Source of the DNA: Fibrobacter sp. UWB13
GTDB lineage: Bacteria > Fibrobacterota > Fibrobacteria > Fibrobacterales > Fibrobacteraceae
Length of the DNA stretch: 64,000 bases
Direction: 5' to 3'
Assembly (NCBI RefSeq): GCF_900177805.1
Contig: NZ_FXAX01000001.1
Coordinates: 2,232,001 to 2,296,000 of the forward strand
Notes under the pieces: generated by a model
Told to the model about the DNA's origin: nothing
Databases searched by the model: none
The model's input: the letters and a program-made list of their open reading frames with translations, nothing else
Shown here: positions 52,698-64,000 of the stretch, in pieces
Layout: each line of letters opens with the position of its first letter
Numbering within the stretch: the first letter of the stretch is position 1
Made by a program: the position numbers and the translations under genes

Positions 52698-54191
52698 TCA
52701 TTCCACCATCGTCTTGATAAGCTGCTTTTCGTCCCCTAACAGCGGATACTGTTCCACGATTTTTCCGTGTTCCAAACGAATCACGGATTGGCAACTGTTT
52801 AAAATAAATTCAGGGTCATGGGTAATTACAAGCAAAGTTTTTCCGCTGGTGGCAAGCTTTTTAAGCGTTGCAGAAACAGCAAGCATTTGCCGATAGTCAA
52901 GACCGCTTGTGGGTTCATCAAAGACAACGATATCACAACCGCTCGAGATTCCGCTGCCGATAGCGACACGCTGTTTTTGCCCGCCCGAAAGTGCCATCGG
53001 ATGATTTTCCGTATATTGCTTAAGATTGAGTCCATCAAGAATTTCAAGAGCAAGTTTTTCATTTTGCGGTTTCATGCCCAGCAAAACCTCGTCCAGAACG
53101 CTTTCAGTGAAAAGCTGATGGTTCACATCTTGCATAATCAAGTACGTGCCGCGCTTGCGAGCCGCACGCTTTTGACGCCAAGAGCCCAGCAATCCGCACA
53201 GCACTTGGGCAAGCGTCGATTTGCCCGCACCATTATGGCCAACCAGTGCCGTAATTTGTCCACATGGGAGTTCAAGATGGTCAATATCCAGAATCGGATG
53301 CTTGCGATGGTAAGAGAAAGTGAGATTGGTAAATGTTATGGATTGCTTCGCGAGATCCAGCTCCTTCGAACCTTGCGGCCCTTCGACAAGCTCAGGGACC
53401 TTACAAGGTTGGTGAGCCTGCCGAACCATCCCTTCGCACAATTGCCCCAAATTCATGCATCGGAGTCCAAGGCTCGATGCGTATGCAGCGCCTTTGGCTT
53501 CAAGTTCTGCGGGAGTCCATTCGTACGCAATTTGCCCATCCTTCACATAACAAATTCTGTCGGCGACATCACGCAAATAGTAAAGGCGATGCTCCACGAT
53601 AACGACCGTCTTCCCCGCCTTTTTCCATCGCGAAACAATTTCCTTCAAATCCGCAATCGTCTTGAGATCCAGATTTGCAGAAGGTTCATCCAGCACAAAA
53701 ATTTCAGGCCCCGTAGCAGAAACAGATGCGCACGCAATTTTCTGTTTTTCGCCGCCCGAAAGGTTAAAGATGCTACGGCCAAGCAAATGCTCTAAATGAA
53801 ATTCCTGAACAACATTCTCCACGCGCTGTTTGATTTCTTCGGGATCCATTTCCAAATTTTCGCAGCCAAAAGCAAGTTCGCAATCCGTATCGATGTTGAA
53901 AAATTGCGAACGCGGATTCTGAAAAACGGAACCCACAACTCGTGAAATTTCGGCTAGCGTCATATCGGAGGTATTCTTGCCACCGAGCAACACATCGCCA
54001 TCCATCGTTCCCGAATGGTAATGCGGAATCAAACCGTTAATGAGCTTTGAAATCGTCGTCTTCCCGCAGCCCGACTCCCCCGCCAGCACAACACACTCGC
54101 CCGAACGAATTTCCAGATTCAAGTTTTTGAGAATCGCATCGTCAAGGGAATCAGAGTAAGAAAAGGAAATATTTTTTAGGGAGATGTTCAT
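52698..54191 (-). CDS. ECF transporter ATPase with two fused ABC domains
   Basis: 497 aa from MNISLKNISFSYSDSLDD at 54191. First ABC domain: Walker A LAGESGCGKTTISKLINGL, signature FNLSGGEKQKIACASV, Walker B EIFVLDEPSANLDL. Second: GHNGAGKSTLAQVLCGLL, MALSGGQKQRVAIGSG, DIVVFDEPTSGLDY. It plays the role of EcfA1-EcfA2 in one chain. Between the domains the frame passes through a dispersed repeat (53379-53427), giving VRQAHQPCKVPELVEGPQ. It is the last gene of an S-T-A operon; the vitamin or other substrate depends on the S component. Confidence 0.9.
   Translation of the reverse strand: MNISLKNISFSYSDSLDDAILKNLNLEIRSGECVVLAGESGCGKTTISKLINGLIPHYHSGTMDGDVLLGGKNTSDMTLAEISRVVGSVFQNPRSQFFNIDTDCELAFGCENLEMDPEEIKQRVENVVQEFHLEHLLGRSIFNLSGGEKQKIACASVSATGPEIFVLDEPSANLDLKTIADLKEIVSRWKKAGKTVVIVEHRLYYLRDVADRICYVKDGQIAYEWTPAELEAKGAAYASSLGLRCMNLGQLCEGMVRQAHQPCKVPELVEGPQGSKELDLAKQSITFTNLTFSYHRKHPILDIDHLELPCGQITALVGHNGAGKSTLAQVLCGLLGSWRQKRAARKRGTYLIMQDVNHQLFTESVLDEVLLGMKPQNEKLALEILDGLNLKQYTENHPMALSGGQKQRVAIGSGISSGCDIVVFDEPTSGLDYRQMLAVSATLKKLATSGKTLLVITHDPEFILNSCQSVIRLEHGKIVEQYPLLGDEKQLIKTMVE
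53379..53427. repeat. Dispersed repeat inside the ECF ATPase gene, translated in frame
   Basis: CCCTTCGACAAGCTCAGGGA (from 53379) and, after a short spacer, GGTGAGCCTGCCGAACC form the two arms of a repeat of a type common in many genomes. It is read as a linker in the protein. Confidence 0.7.
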
Positions 54192-55835: not shown

Positions 55836-58211
55836 ATGCAAGTTTCTCGCGTTAATAAAGTTTTCGCCCGTCTGGGGCGTTTTCAAGTCAAATTCCGTTG
55901 GCTGATTTTACTCGCAACAATTCTTGTAACGTTCGCCGCATGCCTCGGACTTCCACAACTGCAAATGACAGCCAGCGAAGAAGAATGGTTCGACGACTGG
56001 GACAAAGTCAAAATCGACCAAGCGCACTTCAATGACGTTTTCGGCAGCGATGACGGCTATATGGTGATGGTCCGTGCTAACGATGTTTTTGCACCCGAAG
56101 TTTTAAGCGCCATTGACCGACTTTCCAAGCGCCTCGAAAATGAAGTCCCTTACGCTGACCGCGTCGTTTCACTCACGCATAACTTATCCATCCCCATCGC
56201 AAATGATGAGGGTTTCGAAGTCATCGACCCATTCGAAAGCGGCATCCCGACAGATTCAGCACAACTCGCCGCCAAGAAATCGCTCATCATGAGCCGAGAA
56301 TCGCTCGTGAACAACATCGTCTCTGACGACGCCAAAGAAACATGGGTTATTCTCTCGTTGAAATCGTACGAAGGCGGTATCGATTTCGGCAAAGACAGCA
56401 TCGCACCTTTTGCCCGCAATGTCATCCTCTCCGAAGAATTCAAAAGCGACAAGTTCGAGATGCTCCCAACCGGCATGAGCTACACCGAAATGGAAGAGAA
56501 CGAAGTTATCTCGCGTGAATGCGCTATGCGCATTATCTTCGGCTTCGCCGTCATGCTCGTTTGCCTTATTTTATTCGTACGTTCCTTGCGCGGAGTCATC
56601 GTCCCTGCCATTGCAACCGTCGGAGGAATCGCATCTGTTCTCGGCGTAAACGCTTGGCTCGGCATCATCGGCGACGAAAGCATGGTCGCGCTCCCCGTAC
56701 TTTTGGGCATGGCACTTTCGGTGGGCTACTCTATCCATTACATCAATTCATTCCGCATGCACTTTAGGCGCACGGGCAACTGCCGCGAATCCGTCATAAA
56801 CGCCGTAGAAGAAACGGGCTGGCCCATTCTCTTCACCGTCATTACCACCGTTGCCTCGCTGATTTCGTTCCTGTTCGCAGGCATCCGCCCGATCCGCTGG
56901 ATTGGCGGCATTTCGGCAGGCATCGTCTTCATGGTTTACCTGTATGTCATCATCTTGATTCCGATTCTCATGAGCTTCGGTAAAAATACAAAGCCCGACC
57001 CGACAGAAGTGAAAGCGGCAGGCGCCACCAAAATCGACATCCTCTTTGAATTCTTCGGTCGCAAAGTCTGTAGGCACAGCGGAATCGTCGCCGCAATTTC
57101 CGCTGCCATAATGTTAGCGCAAATCCCTGGCGTGATGAACATTGACGTGAACATGGACTACACAAAAACGATGGGCGAAAAAATTTCGTTCGTCACAAGG
57201 CTTATGGACATGCTCAGCGGAAAACTCGGAAGCCTCTACGATTTCAACGTGATGGTTGAATTCAACGACGGCGACGCGCTGAAAGATCCCGCCAACATGA
57301 AGCGCATCGAAACGCTAGAACAAAAGCTCGGTACGCTCCAGCTCACAAAAATTTCAGGAGACAAGCCCCGCGTGCAATCCGTAACGCGACTCGTGAAAGA
57401 AATGAATCGCACGCTGAACAGCGACAGCACAGAATACTACAAAATTCCCGACGCACAAGACATGCTCACGCAACTGCTGTTCCTCTACGAAATTTCAGAT
57501 GCCGACGCGCTCTTTGAACGCATGGACGAAGATTACAAAACAACATTTATCCACATAGAACTCTCCGGGTACGACGCCAAGAAAATCGTTGAAGACCTCG
57601 ATTCCGCGAAATCGTACGCCGCGCAAATTTTCCCGGACGCCAAAACTTCAATCGTCGGTGAAGTCGTAAACTATGCCGAAATGAACGGCAAGCTCGTCAA
57701 TGGACTGTTGCGTTCGTTCGGAGGTTCATTTGTCATCATCGCCATCATGATGATTCTCGCATTCGGGAGCATCAAGGCAGGCCTCATCGGCATGATTCCA
57801 AACGTCGCCCCCGTACTTTTAATCGGTGGCGTCATGGGCTATTCGGGAATGCCGCTCGACATGATAACGATGATTGTGATGCCGATGATTTTGGGCATCG
57901 CCGTCGACGATACCATCCACATGAACAATCACATTAAATACGGTTACGAACGCACAGGCAGCTACAAAAAAGCGCTATTGCTCTCTTACCGCGAAATCGG
58001 AAAGACTATGGGCATGACGACATTCATTCTCTGCGCGATGTTCTTCGTGTTCATCTTTAGCCCGATGGGCGCATTGCACAACGTCGGATTACTTTCCATC
58101 ATCGGCCTTGCCGCCGCCCTCGTCGCCGACTACACGCTTACCACCGCGCTAGTCTATGTGCTCAAACCGTATGGAACGGAAAAGCGGAATCACTCAATAA
58201 ACCCTTCCTGA
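55836..58211 (+). CDS. RND/MMPL-family exporter
   Basis: 791 aa in two homologous halves, each with a large periplasmic loop after the first helix and then a bundle of five helices. The second halves hold ALPVLLGMALSVGYSIHYIN and VMPMILGIAVDDTIHMNNHI, the latter with the Asp pair of proton-driven MMPL/RND proteins (hydrophobe/amphiphile efflux-3 type). Such proteins move lipids or hopanoid-like molecules across the inner membrane. The substrate is unknown. It ends 22 nt inside the convergent JetD-like gene. Confidence 0.85.
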   Translation: MQVSRVNKVFARLGRFQVKFRWLILLATILVTFAACLGLPQLQMTASEEEWFDDWDKVKIDQAHFNDVFGSDDGYMVMVRANDVFAPEVLSAIDRLSKRLENEVPYADRVVSLTHNLSIPIANDEGFEVIDPFESGIPTDSAQLAAKKSLIMSRESLVNNIVSDDAKETWVILSLKSYEGGIDFGKDSIAPFARNVILSEEFKSDKFEMLPTGMSYTEMEENEVISRECAMRIIFGFAVMLVCLILFVRSLRGVIVPAIATVGGIASVLGVNAWLGIIGDESMVALPVLLGMALSVGYSIHYINSFRMHFRRTGNCRESVINAVEETGWPILFTVITTVASLISFLFAGIRPIRWIGGISAGIVFMVYLYVIILIPILMSFGKNTKPDPTEVKAAGATKIDILFEFFGRKVCRHSGIVAAISAAIMLAQIPGVMNIDVNMDYTKTMGEKISFVTRLMDMLSGKLGSLYDFNVMVEFNDGDALKDPANMKRIETLEQKLGTLQLTKISGDKPRVQSVTRLVKEMNRTLNSDSTEYYKIPDAQDMLTQLLFLYEISDADALFERMDEDYKTTFIHIELSGYDAKKIVEDLDSAKSYAAQIFPDAKTSIVGEVVNYAEMNGKLVNGLLRSFGGSFVIIAIMMILAFGSIKAGLIGMIPNVAPVLLIGGVMGYSGMPLDMITMIVMPMILGIAVDDTIHMNNHIKYGYERTGSYKKALLLSYREIGKTMGMTTFILCAMFFVFIFSPMGALHNVGLLSIIGLAAALVADYTLTTALVYVLKPYGTEKRNHSINPS

Positions 58212-59089
58212 TCGTAGCACTTGTGATGTTTCTTTATCAGGTTCACAAGCGGAAGCACTCTCAAATCAGTCACTTTCATATTTTCAAATTTTAAAATTTG
58301 ATCGTCGTAACGTTCGCGGCTACCATTTGCTATGCGTTTTTCCGCATCTTGCGGGATAAAGAATGCTGAACGGTCTTCGAGTTTCGCATAAAATTCGGTA
58401 AGATAAATGTTAATGCCAGCGAGGTCAAGGTCGCCAAAATGCACATAGTAATTTTCGTTACCACAAAGCCAACGAATCAAATCGCCTGATTGCGGATATC
58501 GAGCGACAAACAATAATGGTTGCGGTTTAACAAATGGCACTATTTGTTTGAACAAAGTTTTTTGCCTTTCAATATAGCGGAAATTTTCCATATTCTCTAT
58601 GCCCACAACTATCACATTTTCGGGGATAAAGAAATTTTCGTAATCAGCGATGAATACGTAAGAGCCGTCGGGAGGATTCAGGTCGAAGTGTTTTCCATTG
58701 AGGCTGACGGGAATAGGCTCATAGCAATTCACTAAGAAACCCTTGCAACTGCGAGTAATTCGAATTTTAGAATTACCAGTTGTAGCGGCTTGCTCTTTAC
58801 GCAAAGCCAAAGGTCTTATGCTACTTTCGGCCCAAGAGAGTCTGCGATACATTTCTTCACTTTTTTCCAAATCCTTAAATGCGTCGTGACGTGTAGCAAG
58901 ATAAGCACGGAGAGCTTTCCCATTTGGTGCTTTACAAAAAGAGCCTCGCCCTTTCGGAATAGAAATCAGCAAACCTTCTTTAAGCAATTCTGCAAAAACA
59001 GTTCCCTTGCAATCGCTTGCAGGAAGTTCACCGCCATTAACAAGGGCAATTAGTTTATTCAGCAACGCAGTTGTGATGTTATAAGGCAT
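58190..59089 (-). CDS. JetD-like Toprim nuclease of a Wadjet-type system
   Basis: 299 aa. The C-terminal half shows a Toprim fold: the Glu motif NVIVVGIENMENFRYI (about residue 165) and the DxD motif YVHFGDLDLAGINIYL (about 218-232), ending in DQEGFIE. The N-terminal part is helix-turn-helix-like. In Wadjet, JetD cleaves plasmid DNA that the SMC complex has extruded. At 299 aa it is shorter than typical JetD proteins (about 400). It starts one base after the JetC-like stop (TAG-T-ATG), so translation is coupled. Confidence 0.8.
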   Translation of the reverse strand: MPYNITTALLNKLIALVNGGELPASDCKGTVFAELLKEGLLISIPKGRGSFCKAPNGKALRAYLATRHDAFKDLEKSEEMYRRLSWAESSIRPLALRKEQAATTGNSKIRITRSCKGFLVNCYEPIPVSLNGKHFDLNPPDGSYVFIADYENFFIPENVIVVGIENMENFRYIERQKTLFKQIVPFVKPQPLLFVARYPQSGDLIRWLCGNENYYVHFGDLDLAGINIYLTEFYAKLEDRSAFFIPQDAEKRIANGSRERYDDQILKFENMKVTDLRVLPLVNLIKKHHKCYDQEGFIE

Positions 59090-59090
59090 A

Positions 59091-62000
59091 CTAATTTTCC
59101 ACTCGTCTAGTCATCAGCGGTCTTACCACCGTCTGCGATTTAGCATTCTTTTCAAGTAAATAGGTGTAGCGATATTCCGATACACTTTGCGTTGTGGGCG
59201 AACCGTTCACCAGATAAATATTTCGACTGTTCGCAAATTTCAAAATGCCATTTGCATTTTTCGGATGGAGTTTTCCGATTTCGTCCATCATGCAATGGAG
59301 CTTAAATTCACCGAACTTGCGCGAAGCCTGGGTTTTGAAAACATTGATAAGCATAATGTTCACCATCGCTTTCACAAGCACATCCGTTCCTTCGGAACCC
59401 ACATTCGAAATTTTGTCAATCCAACCAGTATCGTTATCATTTTCTTGCACGCGGAACTGCAAGCGGAACGAATCTGAAAGTTTCAGCAAATTGCGAGTCG
59501 GTTCGTCATTCAAAGACTTCACAAATTGCAATAGCAAATTTACCGCTCCACGATTCGCACTTTCAGAATCCCCAACAGAGAACAAATTCAAATCACCCAA
59601 TGCATACTGATTTTCGGCATAAAACTTCTGCATAGAAAGCATCAATCGCATCAACTTATCGTTCGATTCTTCAGTACGCAAAGCGATACTCTTGATGACT
59701 CCCGCAAAATTCTTTTCGATAAAGTCTCGATTAATACTATTTACAATTTTTTCGATTTCAGATTTCTGGCGCGTAACATCGCCCACTTCTTTTGCAACTC
59801 GTGCCAAAATATCAGAATAGCGTCCGCTTGTTCGCTTGCGATAGTCTTCAATCTTTTCATTCAGCAAAAAGTCACTCAAGTTGTCTGCGAAATCCATAAA
59901 GTCACCTTCGCTATTCAGCTCCATCTTAAACTTGAAAGTATTGCGTCTAGAGAAACGCCCTTTGAACTTGTTGATTGCAATTTCAAGTTCCTTGCTGCGC
60001 TTTTGGCTATTCATTAGAGATTCTTTGAGTTCCGTCAAAATTTCGGTACAAAGGCGAGCATTAGGCGATTCCCCGACATCTTTCAGATTTTCAGGACAGA
60101 AGCTAGAAATAGAGAATTTATCGGTTTCCTCAATAGAATCCTTTAACAAGCGTTCCGTTTCGCGATTCTTTTGCAAAACATTATTCTGTTCAACTCGTTT
60201 TGCTTCAAGACGTTCCTTACGAACGTTAAACTTCTGCTGCAAATCATTCAATCGACTTTCTAAATCGCGTTTATCATTTTTGAATTCATCTTCGCGGTCA
60301 AAGAATTCTTGTTTGTCATAGCGGTAACGGGCCACCAAATCGCGATTGCGTTCAATTTCGTTCAACTGCTGCTGCACATTATCAATTTCCGCTTCGCATT
60401 CCTTCAACACGCTGACATCGACATTCTTATTTTTGAGTTCTTCATCGCGTTGCAGCAACAAATTCTTGCGTTCGTTTTCCGCTTCACTTTTGCGAGTTTC
60501 TATTTCAGTTAGAATTTGCACACGGAAATCGTCAAACGCATTTTGAAGAGATTCATTTTCTTGCAATTTCGCTTTTTCATTCGCTTTAAGTTCGCGATTT
60601 TTATCTGCAACAATTTTGTCCTGTTGATCTTCGGCGTTCAGCAATTTTTCAGAAAGCTGGCTCTGTTGAGACTGAATTTCATTTTTACGCTTTTCAATTT
60701 CAGCAGCATCATCGCGAATCCATTTTTCGCGATCGTTTTCTATGCGTTTACGCGTTATCGGAATTTGCACCAAATCGTTATCGGCATTCCTAATATTTTC
60801 CAACAGCGGTTTGATTTTTGGAGCATACAAGCGTTCTACCGCAGCATTTTTCTTTTCAAGAGCATCCGCCAATTCCGTCTGTTTCGCTTTATTTTCTTCA
60901 ACAAACTTTAAAACAGACTTTTTCTCGTTTGCAATTTCTTCAGGTGTGCGCACTCGGACTGGCAATTCTTCGAGATTAATTTTCACACCGAAAAGAGCGT
61001 TGTTTGCATCCGTCGCAGCTTCAGCCCCGGCAGCAGTCGCACCAACATTTACAAGTTCCGGCGAAAGCGTTGTATTGTACAAAACGGCTTCTTCATCTAC
61101 AACCTTGCCAATGGAATTTTCCCAACCAGGTTTATTTTGGCTGAGCCATTCATAGAAGGAACCTTTTTGCCGTTCTAGCAATTCGTCAAGATTTTTAAGT
61201 TGAGCAATTAAGTCTTGATTTTTCGCAACCAAAGCATCATTTTCTTTTTCATATTCGACGCGGTTCCGCTCCTGTTCAGCATCACGCTGTGCAGAAAGCT
61301 TGCTCAACTCCGCTTGATTCGTGGATTTTAAAACCTTCGTTTCGCTTTCTTGCGTGTTCAAAGATTTTAGCTGTTCATCGCACTCGCGAATTTTATCTGC
61401 AAATGGATGAACGTACTTGAGCTCTAGCAATTTCTTGTCACAAGCAACACTATCAGCCTTAAGCGAGTCAATCGTATTTTTAACACTCTCCAATTTTTCA
61501 TCGTATCGTGCAACAATCGCCGCCCTGGACTGTTCAAATTTTTCAAGTACCCGCTGTTGTTGTTCCAATAGCTCCGCTTTTTTATCGTTCAAACGAACGG
61601 TCTGATTTTGCTTAAACTCTTCTAACGCTCGCGAAACTTGCTTCAACAAATTTTCAAACTTGTCCGCAACATCATCGTATTCACGGGTCAAAAGGCGACG
61701 ACGTTCTTCAAGCCGCTCTTTCTCGTTTTTCAATGAACCTTCGCATTCATGCTTTTTCAGAACATCATCAATATTTTTCGCTTGATAATCCTGGAACTTA
61801 TCACGACAGTTTTTCAGTTTGTCCTTGACAAGAGTCAAACTCGCATTAAGTCCATCGCGTTCCTTATTGAACTTTCCATTTTCTTCACTAATAAGACGAA
61901 TCGTATCGTTCAACGCCGCATTCGACTTTTCAATTTCAATCGCAATCGACGGTAACTGTTCTTTTGCGGTACGATAAGAATAATTCAGTTGCTTGCCACA

Positions 62001-62789
62001 CTCCTCAATATTTTTCTTGAGTCCCAAAAGCGAATGGTAAAGTTTCACAACACGGTCGGCATCAAGCCTAGTCTCACATTCGCCTCGTTTGTTCGTCGTG
62101 AACCAAAGTCCGATATCGCTATATTCCTGTTCAAACTCCGAAACCTGATGCCTAAAATACCCCAAGTCGATAAACGAACTTTCACTATCCATCGACTGGA
62201 TAATCGTTTCCTTGATAAAATCTGCATCAAGCTTCGAATTCAGAAAAACATTCTGTATGCTGCGTGGTATATTCTGGTAACGGCTACTTTCAGCAATCGA
62301 GAATTTGAAAAATTCCTTTTTCATGACCGCCTGATGATTTCCGTAAATAATATCACGGAACATCTCATAGCGATCTACAATCGGGCTCATGTAGCAACCA
62401 TTAAGCCGTGTGCGAACTGTCGTCATTTCGGCAGTCACTTCGCCATTTTCGTCAATCAGCCATTCTTTCTTGTATGGCGAATCAATAAAGCGAAAAACCG
62501 TTCTACCATTAGACTTACTCAACAACACACAAAATGCAGATTCGTCTCGTTCTACTTCATAAACAACGTAAGAGTTAGATTGTTCAAAATAGAAATCATC
62601 GAAAGATTTCTTTTCCTTGGGAATCCCCAACTTTTGCTTGTCCGCATTGTAGAAAAAGAGAATTGCGCGCAAAAGAGTGCTCTTGCCTACGCCCTGCGTA
62701 CCTATCAAATGCACATTTCCATTAAGACCAATTTCTGCATAACGCACGTGGGCGCTATTGATAAATACAATCTTGTTAAGGGATCTCAT
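59091..62789 (-). CDS. JetC/MukB-like SMC ATPase
   Basis: 1232 aa from the ATG at 62789, which follows GGAGGGGG; an upstream in-frame ATG at 62807 lacks this. N-terminal ATPase head with Walker A LIGTQGVGKSTLLRAILFF (about residue 30). Long coiled coil at about 250-990 with a central hinge-like gap near 560-640. C-terminal head with signature-like VGSEGTDVLVKAMVN and Walker B LHCMMDEIGKLHP. It is the motor that extrudes DNA loops in Wadjet and Muk/Mks complexes. It overlaps the JetB-like gene by 14 nt. Confidence 0.85.
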   Translation of the reverse strand: MRSLNKIVFINSAHVRYAEIGLNGNVHLIGTQGVGKSTLLRAILFFYNADKQKLGIPKEKKSFDDFYFEQSNSYVVYEVERDESAFCVLLSKSNGRTVFRFIDSPYKKEWLIDENGEVTAEMTTVRTRLNGCYMSPIVDRYEMFRDIIYGNHQAVMKKEFFKFSIAESSRYQNIPRSIQNVFLNSKLDADFIKETIIQSMDSESSFIDLGYFRHQVSEFEQEYSDIGLWFTTNKRGECETRLDADRVVKLYHSLLGLKKNIEECGKQLNYSYRTAKEQLPSIAIEIEKSNAALNDTIRLISEENGKFNKERDGLNASLTLVKDKLKNCRDKFQDYQAKNIDDVLKKHECEGSLKNEKERLEERRRLLTREYDDVADKFENLLKQVSRALEEFKQNQTVRLNDKKAELLEQQQRVLEKFEQSRAAIVARYDEKLESVKNTIDSLKADSVACDKKLLELKYVHPFADKIRECDEQLKSLNTQESETKVLKSTNQAELSKLSAQRDAEQERNRVEYEKENDALVAKNQDLIAQLKNLDELLERQKGSFYEWLSQNKPGWENSIGKVVDEEAVLYNTTLSPELVNVGATAAGAEAATDANNALFGVKINLEELPVRVRTPEEIANEKKSVLKFVEENKAKQTELADALEKKNAAVERLYAPKIKPLLENIRNADNDLVQIPITRKRIENDREKWIRDDAAEIEKRKNEIQSQQSQLSEKLLNAEDQQDKIVADKNRELKANEKAKLQENESLQNAFDDFRVQILTEIETRKSEAENERKNLLLQRDEELKNKNVDVSVLKECEAEIDNVQQQLNEIERNRDLVARYRYDKQEFFDREDEFKNDKRDLESRLNDLQQKFNVRKERLEAKRVEQNNVLQKNRETERLLKDSIEETDKFSISSFCPENLKDVGESPNARLCTEILTELKESLMNSQKRSKELEIAINKFKGRFSRRNTFKFKMELNSEGDFMDFADNLSDFLLNEKIEDYRKRTSGRYSDILARVAKEVGDVTRQKSEIEKIVNSINRDFIEKNFAGVIKSIALRTEESNDKLMRLMLSMQKFYAENQYALGDLNLFSVGDSESANRGAVNLLLQFVKSLNDEPTRNLLKLSDSFRLQFRVQENDNDTGWIDKISNVGSEGTDVLVKAMVNIMLINVFKTQASRKFGEFKLHCMMDEIGKLHPKNANGILKFANSRNIYLVNGSPTTQSVSEYRYTYLLEKNAKSQTVVRPLMTRRVEN

Positions 62790-63327
62790 TTTCAGCCCCC
62801 TCCACAATATTCAAGCAATTCACCATTTCTTCGAGATAATGGAACGAAGCGGTTACCTTATACAAACCTTCCAAATCATTTTCAAGTTCCACAAAACCCG
62901 CTTTTACAAAATCATCCGTCAGCCTATCAATAACATCTGCAAAAGCTTTTTTGTCTGCGTAAAGCTTAGTCGCCTTATCCTTCAGTTCCATATCACAAGA
63001 AATTCGTTCCAGAATTTTCGCCTTGGTATAGACAAAACCCGAACCAAATGCTGAATTGAATGTTTTCAAAAAATCAAGTCGATCTATCCAATCGCAAAAA
63101 CGAGCAAGCTTGTCAACCGCATTTACGCGCTGTTCGTGCCTTGAAAAATAAAAATACCCATTACCGCTCTCTAGCACAAAGCCGATACCTTCATAATATT
63201 CACGGTAATTTTCAAAATCGTCTTCAATCTGGTCGAAATACGCACGGTTCGCTTGGGAAACGCTGTTCATCGAAATAAACGAGCCCTTGCTCAAGATATC
63301 AAAAATTTCCTTGGAGTATTTTAGCAT
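62776..63327 (-). CDS. JetB/MksE-like subunit
   Basis: 183 aa, all helical with winged-helix character (YSKEIFDILSKGSFISMN; VIDRLTDDFVKAGFVELEND). Size, content and place before the SMC gene fit the MukE/MksE/JetB family, which bridges the SMC head and the kleisin subunit. The expected kleisin (JetA/MukF, about 450-550 aa) is not encoded next to it. There is no strong ribosome-binding site before 63327. Confidence 0.7.
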   Translation of the reverse strand: MLKYSKEIFDILSKGSFISMNSVSQANRAYFDQIEDDFENYREYYEGIGFVLESGNGYFYFSRHEQRVNAVDKLARFCDWIDRLDFLKTFNSAFGSGFVYTKAKILERISCDMELKDKATKLYADKKAFADVIDRLTDDFVKAGFVELENDLEGLYKVTASFHYLEEMVNCLNIVEGAENEIP

Positions 63328-63406
63328 AGATGAAAATTATAAAAGTTTAGCAGTGCGCAGAGTATTTTTACCCGAAATATTCAATAATACGCAGAGTATT
63401 TCGTCT

Positions 63407-64000
63407 CTAAGCCCCTTCTGAAGCCGTTACCTTTTTGAATTCATCCATTATCGGGTGGTAAACCTCCGGGCATTCGACTTGCATAATGGTCGTAATTTTG
63501 TTACCACCGTCTTTTGAAGATGCACCGCAATGGAATAATTTCTCGTTAGGTAATCCGTAATCCAAAAATGTGTAGCGGTCATGAAACTTGCGGTTCGGAC
63601 GATCGATTTTTAACGAAACATCAGGTCTGGCTTTTTCATAATCTGCCTTTATCGCTGGAGTAATCTTTTCGTTGCCCCATTGCTCGCTGAAAATCTGTAC
63701 GCTTACGCCTTTAGCAATTCCGCGCAACAGATCCAAAGTTTTTACGCCCACGTAGTTATCAATAATCGTGATGGATTTCTTCGCCATAGCATAAATCTTC
63801 GTGTAGGCGACGTCGGCTTCCAACTTCTGTCCATCGAAAATCAGGAAGTGTTTGTAGGTAGAGGGATCGATGAAGTTCTCCATAACCTTTTGAAGGTCAA
63901 TATTCATTTTGCAGAGATCTTTGCGCACGTCGTGCACTTCGCCGGAAAGTTCGCGTACATTGGCAGATGTAACGGCAATATCGCGAGTATTTTGGACGGT
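63407..64000 (-). CDS. C-terminal part of a RhuM/ORF6N-type protein with PLD-like domain (5' end outside window)
   Basis: The frame is open to the window edge (TVQNTRDIAVTSANV... before HDVRKDL), so the start lies beyond 64000; the GTG at 63937 is probably not the real start. The visible part has a coiled segment, then LIFDGQKLEADVAYTKIYAM, SITIIDNYVGVKTLDLL, NRKFHDRYTFLDYG and FHCGASSKDGGNKITTI, a phospholipase-D-like tail found on such island proteins. It stands 79 nt upstream of the JetB-like gene in the same direction. Confidence 0.7.
   Translation of the reverse strand, partial: TVQNTRDIAVTSANVRELSGEVHDVRKDLCKMNIDLQKVMENFIDPSTYKHFLIFDGQKLEADVAYTKIYAMAKKSITIIDNYVGVKTLDLLRGIAKGVSVQIFSEQWGNEKITPAIKADYEKARPDVSLKIDRPNRKFHDRYTFLDYGLPNEKLFHCGASSKDGGNKITTIMQVECPEVYHPIMDEFKKVTASEGA

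Follow-up and report, generated by a model that had tools for sequence, protein, structure and literature searches.

A probable complete but sequence-divergent Wadjet-like JetABCD system in Fibrobacter, split between jetA and jetB

Does the Wadjet-like operon of Fibrobacter sp. UWB13 lack the kleisin JetA? In Wadjet systems, two JetABC motors extrude circular DNA, and JetD cuts it once the circle is exhausted (PMC10586767, PMC12647877, PMC12287153). The stretch of DNA analyzed here (64,000 nucleotides, G000:C1:2232001-2296000; hereafter, the window) ends within a locus where an ORF6N-domain gene lies upstream of jetB-, jetC-, and jetD-like genes. The initial annotation reported JetA as absent from this operon and offered two options: either jetA lies farther away, beyond the window, or a reduced SMC defense type uses another closing subunit. 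The first option is the correct one. A kleisin gene is present on the same strand past the end of the window, JetA appeared to be lacking because the window edge cuts the locus, and the claim of a kleisin-free Wadjet is refuted. With a probability of about 0.86, the locus encodes not a reduced type but a complete Wadjet-like JetABCD system that is divergent in sequence and belongs to a lineage of Fibrobacterota and Bacteroidota. In this reading, a secondary insertion, where an ORF6N (PDC-S05) gene now resides, has separated jetA from jetB and thereby split the operon.

By homology, JetA (kleisin), JetB (MksE-type KITE), and JetC (SMC ATPase) would form a complex that acts as an SMC motor and extrudes loops of circular DNA. 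The short JetD, which combines a winged helix with a TOPRIM nuclease domain, would cut the DNA when extrusion stalls on small circles, thereby restricting plasmids. The jetBCD genes are probably transcribed separately, from a promoter at the right edge of the insertion, in sequence that either arrived with it or was retained there.

Genes within and beyond the window

All genes of this locus are on the minus strand; positions past 64000 are given as window equivalents (positions in locus L003 equal the window position minus 52999). The jetD-like gene (58190-59089) encodes a 299-aa protein with an N-terminal winged helix and a C-terminal TOPRIM domain. It is preceded by the jetC-like SMC ATPase gene (59091-62789 from its ATG, with the open reading frame extending to 62807; 1232 aa) and the jetB-like KITE gene (62776-63327; 183 aa). 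The tight coupling of these three genes, described in the initial annotation, is confirmed by a 14-bp overlap of jetB and jetC and a 1-bp gap between jetC and jetD. The sizes of JetD, regarded there as unusually short, and of JetB, also singled out, are normal among orthologues, which have 284 to 305 aa and 180 to 190 aa, respectively. Upstream of jetB is a leader (63328-63400), a candidate promoter or regulatory region of jetBCD, followed by the ORF6N-domain gene, which runs past the window edge (63407 to 64474; L003:10408-11475; 355 aa).

The jetA gene (65156-66349; L003:12157-13350; 397 aa) is wholly outside the window, starting ~2.35 kb and ending ~1.16 kb past base 64000. Extension of the sequence thus recovers jetA, but not next to its partner: the ORF6N gene and a further ~680 bp without an obvious gene separate it from jetB, for a total jetA-jetB distance of 1830 bp in the UWB13 genome. 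All four jet reading frames are intact.

Sequence and structure of the four Jet proteins

No Pfam, PADLOC, or NCBIfam match to JetA passes the cutoff. Its AlphaFold model, built from 14 homologues (pLDDT 74, pTM 0.42), has winged helices at the N and C termini and long helices in the center. In a Foldseek search against 350,542 PDB chains, the five best matches of this model are MukF (9gm7_C), E. coli JetA (8q72_E), and MukF again (7nz2, 3euh_A, and 3euh_B), with E-values from 1.1e-3 to 3.3e-2. Further structural matches include a type II Wadjet JetA chain (9qe0_E, from Neobacillus vireti JetABC), which, at an rmsd of 38 Å, is only loosely comparable. In VIA-align, the Z-score of ~12 to 13 for MukF proves little, because unrelated helical bundles (syntaxin, STAT, and CorA) dominate with Z-scores of 12 to 14; it is the Foldseek ranking that carries the predicted kleisin fold. 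Given that all five top matches are MukF or JetA and that the gene order is conserved, the 397-aa protein is identified as JetA, a predicted MukF-type kleisin; by themselves, the fold statistics give moderate support, and the call becomes strong through the conserved gene order.

JetB belongs to the Pfam family MksE (PF21980, 6.5e-37) and is thus a KITE-type subunit. In hhalign comparisons, neither JetA nor JetB has a significant match to its counterpart in type I Wadjet systems from Fibrobacterota, with shallow alignments (Neff 2-3) in both cases; searches of PDB sequences with the JetA and JetB alignment profiles return a few weak matches to unrelated proteins and no true relative. JetC matches Pfam DUF3584 (1.3e-58) and contains a Walker A motif, GTQGVGKST (residues 30-38), and a Walker B motif, CMMDE (1166-1170). 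The SMC ATPase signatures GxxGxGKST and DE are invariant in 13 JetC members, and the JetC profile matches its type I counterpart across the ATP-binding region (1.4e-7).

JetD matches Pfam DUF7281 below the cutoff (1e-4), and neither its alignment profile nor that of JetC has matches among PDB sequences. The JetD model (pLDDT 84) resembles the C. glutamicum MksG (8b7f; Z 12.7 over 151 residues, 3.0 Å), Topo VI-A (Z 11.6), and P. aeruginosa JetD (7til; Z 11.2); the first unrelated fold follows at Z 5.5. Among 14 sequences, E165, G219-D220, D222, and G225 (the GDxDxxG motif) as well as Q294 and E295 ([DE]QE) are invariant or nearly so, and these motifs align with the E, GDxDxxG, and LEQE of type I JetD, to which the profile match has an E-value of 8.6e-6. 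The model, motifs, and profile agree on a CAP-like winged helix and a TOPRIM domain with catalytic acidic residues. The nuclease activity of MksG requires the TOPRIM glutamate E236 and aspartate D279 (PMC10123090); judging by the motifs, we take E165 and one of D220 and D222 to be their equivalents in JetD.

Three Wadjet types are recognized in the literature (PMC12647877). When typed with the PADLOC 2.0.0 models of types I, II, and III, JetA has no Jet matches in 14 members, JetB scores at or near chance (best 3.8e-4, in one member), JetC is matched only at its ATP-binding end, and JetD is matched weakly (best 6.4e-6), so that no single type recognizes all four proteins. Because these models miss JetA and JetB, the family is best viewed as a divergent lineage that appears Wadjet-like in its architecture and catalytic residues and whose type is not assignable from the PADLOC models. 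It shares with type I systems (JetABCD, or MksBEFG in C. glutamicum; also P. aeruginosa PA14 and E. coli GF4-3) the kleisin-KITE-SMC-TOPRIM nuclease order, the JetD fold with its E, GDxDxxG, and QE residues, and a kleisin-like JetA model. In contrast to type I, its JetA and JetB escape both the PADLOC models and a comparison of profiles against type I relatives, JetA has 397 aa versus ~467 to 517 aa in the compared type I loci, JetD has ~300 aa with a shorter N-terminal part, and the KITE is MksE. The likeness to type II is limited to the loose 9qe0_E match, whereas JetA and JetB have no PADLOC type II match. With somewhat less than even odds, these features could define a distinct Wadjet type, with an MksE-type KITE, a short DUF7281-like JetD, and a ~400-aa kleisin, that is found on chromosomes of Bacteroidota and Fibrobacterota and on large plasmids and has been overlooked by PADLOC-type searches. 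In a search of mainly open-access literature, no paper was found on this Bacteroidota/Fibrobacterota Wadjet lineage or on a jet operon interrupted by ORF6N.

A second, different four-gene SMC operon is found in other Fibrobacter (L121:4340-9789 and L119:6135-11860). It encodes a 413- or 504-aa protein, an MksE-type KITE (PF21980, 6.4e-24), a 927-aa SMC-like ATPase, and a 283- or 287-aa protein; PADLOC recognizes only the ATPase, weakly.

Gene order in relatives and the jetA-jetB insertion

A scan of GTDB genomes with JetA yields 22 loci with a jetA relative. The order jetA-jetB-jetC-jetD is found in Bacteroides, Prevotella, Pontibacter, F. intestinalis ATCC 43854, and other Fibrobacterota, and wherever a locus extends far enough, jetC is followed by jetD. 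In each of the 18 other loci whose junction is readable (Fibrobacterota and Bacteroidota), jetA and jetB are separated by -4 to 24 bp (16 bp in F. intestinalis ATCC 43854). The kleisin, KITE, SMC ATPase, and TOPRIM nuclease genes are co-located, contiguous in relatives and split by the insertion in UWB13. Insertions of 1.7 to 1.8 kb at this junction are found only in one Fibrobacter group of four genomes: UWB13 (G000), G006, G151, and G145. Full-length JetC is encoded in only 8 of the 168 genomes of the phylum, and plasmids of Bacteroides, Phocaeicola, Parabacteroides, and Persicobacter, from 65 kb to 1.6 Mb in size, carry copies of the divergent operon. In close relatives, the site beside the same transporter gene carries no jet genes, and homology stops at 58174-58190. 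The patchy distribution, plasmid copies, and jet-free relatives fit an accessory defense system.

The content of the insertion varies. UWB13 has an intact ORF6N gene, which the initial annotation described as PLD-like and of the RhuM/ORF6N type. The ORF6N domain is indeed present (Pfam, 7.9e-31), whereas Pfam detects no PLD family at E ≤ 1; residues 13 to 348 match the PADLOC PDC-S05 model (2.3e-101), and the C-terminal part has an HDRY-type motif, seen by eye. The UWB13 copy thus resembles the ORF6N/RhuM genes of this PADLOC candidate system and differs from them in being located inside a Wadjet-like operon, any joint action with which would be hypothetical. In G006, G151, and G145, with jetA-jetB distances of ~1720 to 1740 bp, the insertion consists of an ORF6N gene fragment, a short ORF6N C-terminal tail, a complete gene for a DUF1016/YhcG nuclease of the PDDEXK type (PF06250, 1.4e-55; PF17761, 1.1e-45), and another ORF6N tail. 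The simplest reading, which we infer from these sequences, is that an ORF6N-type gene inserted once in an ancestor and that the site was later remodeled.

Nei-Gojobori comparisons of UWB13 with G006 and G151, all of them insertion-bearing, give dN/dS values of 0.05 to 0.07 for jetA, 0.03 for jetB, and 0.04 for jetC, and for jetD a dN of 0.05 at saturated synonymous sites; JetA, JetB, and JetC are under strong purifying selection across the insertion. The jetB leader is ~90% identical in all four insertion-bearing genomes. As this ~10% difference compares with a synonymous distance of ~1.1 in jetB, the leader seems to be constrained, which suggests a putative regulatory role; a consensus promoter scan found the insertion no richer than its shuffles. 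Between G000 and G006, the synonymous distance is 0.42 for jetA versus 1.08 for jetB and 1.3 for jetC, which suggests that the jetA side recombined separately from jetBCD.

Alternative explanations and the ORF6N family

With the ORF6N gene directly upstream of jetB in UWB13, a reduced system could be imagined in which the ORF6N protein, in the absence of a kleisin, closes the JetC ring. This is extremely improbable, given that the system has a kleisin that is conserved and subject to purifying selection, and that ORF6N is a lineage-specific insertion, which none of the 18 other readable loci has at the junction and which the DUF1016 gene replaces in three sister genomes. DNA related to the ORF6N gene is found in 77 of the 80 genomes of the genus, often in several copies each, in contrast to the rarity of full-length JetC in the phylum. 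Its closest relatives (65 to 80% protein identity) adjoin Na/Ala symporter, methyltransferase-like, or housekeeping genes and have neither jetA nor jetB of the divergent family in their vicinity, and a scan of viral contigs for the ORF6N protein found nothing. Because related genes are so widespread, often far from any jet gene, ORF6N appears to be a bystander in origin and not the closing subunit. A less remote, though still unlikely, alternative is that the slot between jetA and jetB serves to carry functional cargo, in which case ORF6N/PDC-S05 or the DUF1016 nuclease would be an accessory defense module expressed together with Wadjet. In sister lineages, this one slot holds two different defense-associated genes, a similar palindrome-containing region lies upstream of each, and in another Fibrobacter a PDC-S05 gene (RhuM-like, 7.7e-142; L084:7566-8606) is directly upstream of a type I Wadjet jetA. 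However, given the abundance of ORF6N in the genus, adjacency may be due to chance, and the ORF6N remnants on both sides of DUF1016 look like replacement by recombination.

The affinity of JetB to the condensin family MksE raises the question of whether the four genes encode a chromosome-organizing condensin of the MksBEF/MukBEF kind rather than a defense system, the more so as some Bacteroidota have no recognizable condensins (PMC10197239). This is rather improbable in view of the patchy, accessory distribution (8 of 168 genomes), the copies on plasmids, the end of homology at the transporter gene in close relatives, and the fourth gene after jetC, which encodes a nuclease with intact TOPRIM residues in all members, unlike an MksBEF/MukBEF condensin without such a gene. 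Finally, the separation of jetA from jetBCD by ~1.8 kb and the loss of their tight coupling might indicate that the insertion broke the operon and that the system is decaying. The intact frames, the low dN/dS of jetA, jetB, and jetC between insertion-bearing lineages, and the conserved jetB leader make this very unlikely.

The complete, split JetABCD operon thus removes a false lead, a Wadjet without a kleisin, and points to a lineage of complete JetABCD systems in gut and rumen bacteria that PADLOC models miss. Such systems could be an obstacle to the use of plasmids in Fibrobacter and Bacteroides, and the split operon provides a natural experiment on whether the kleisin needs co-transcription with its partners.

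In ORF6N (PDC-S05) genes, the conserved AFTEQG motif is immediately preceded by a DNA palindrome that is near-perfect and in frame (L003:11194-11228, equivalent to 64193-64227; also L092-L118). Its stem is 12 to 17 in 18 of 23 copies, whereas 2 of 600 control windows reach 12, and its arms vary between paralogues with complementarity kept. A Treponema plasmid copy also has such a palindrome, and the ORF6N remnant in L027 starts at one; possible roles are a self-operator, a hairpin, or a recombination point. Another palindrome, AATGTCATAATATGACATT, is found upstream of the UWB13 ORF6N gene (L003:11547-11567 region) and of the sister DUF1016 gene (L027:11557-11575). It has 13 genome matches (≤2 mismatches, both strands), some of them upstream of RhuM/ORF6N-type genes, versus 0 for the reversed control. 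A short interspersed repeat with CCTTCGGCAAGCTCAGGGACC-like sequence, identified by eye, is found in the insertion (L003:11650-11720) and apparently again farther away within the window, at positions 53333-53602.
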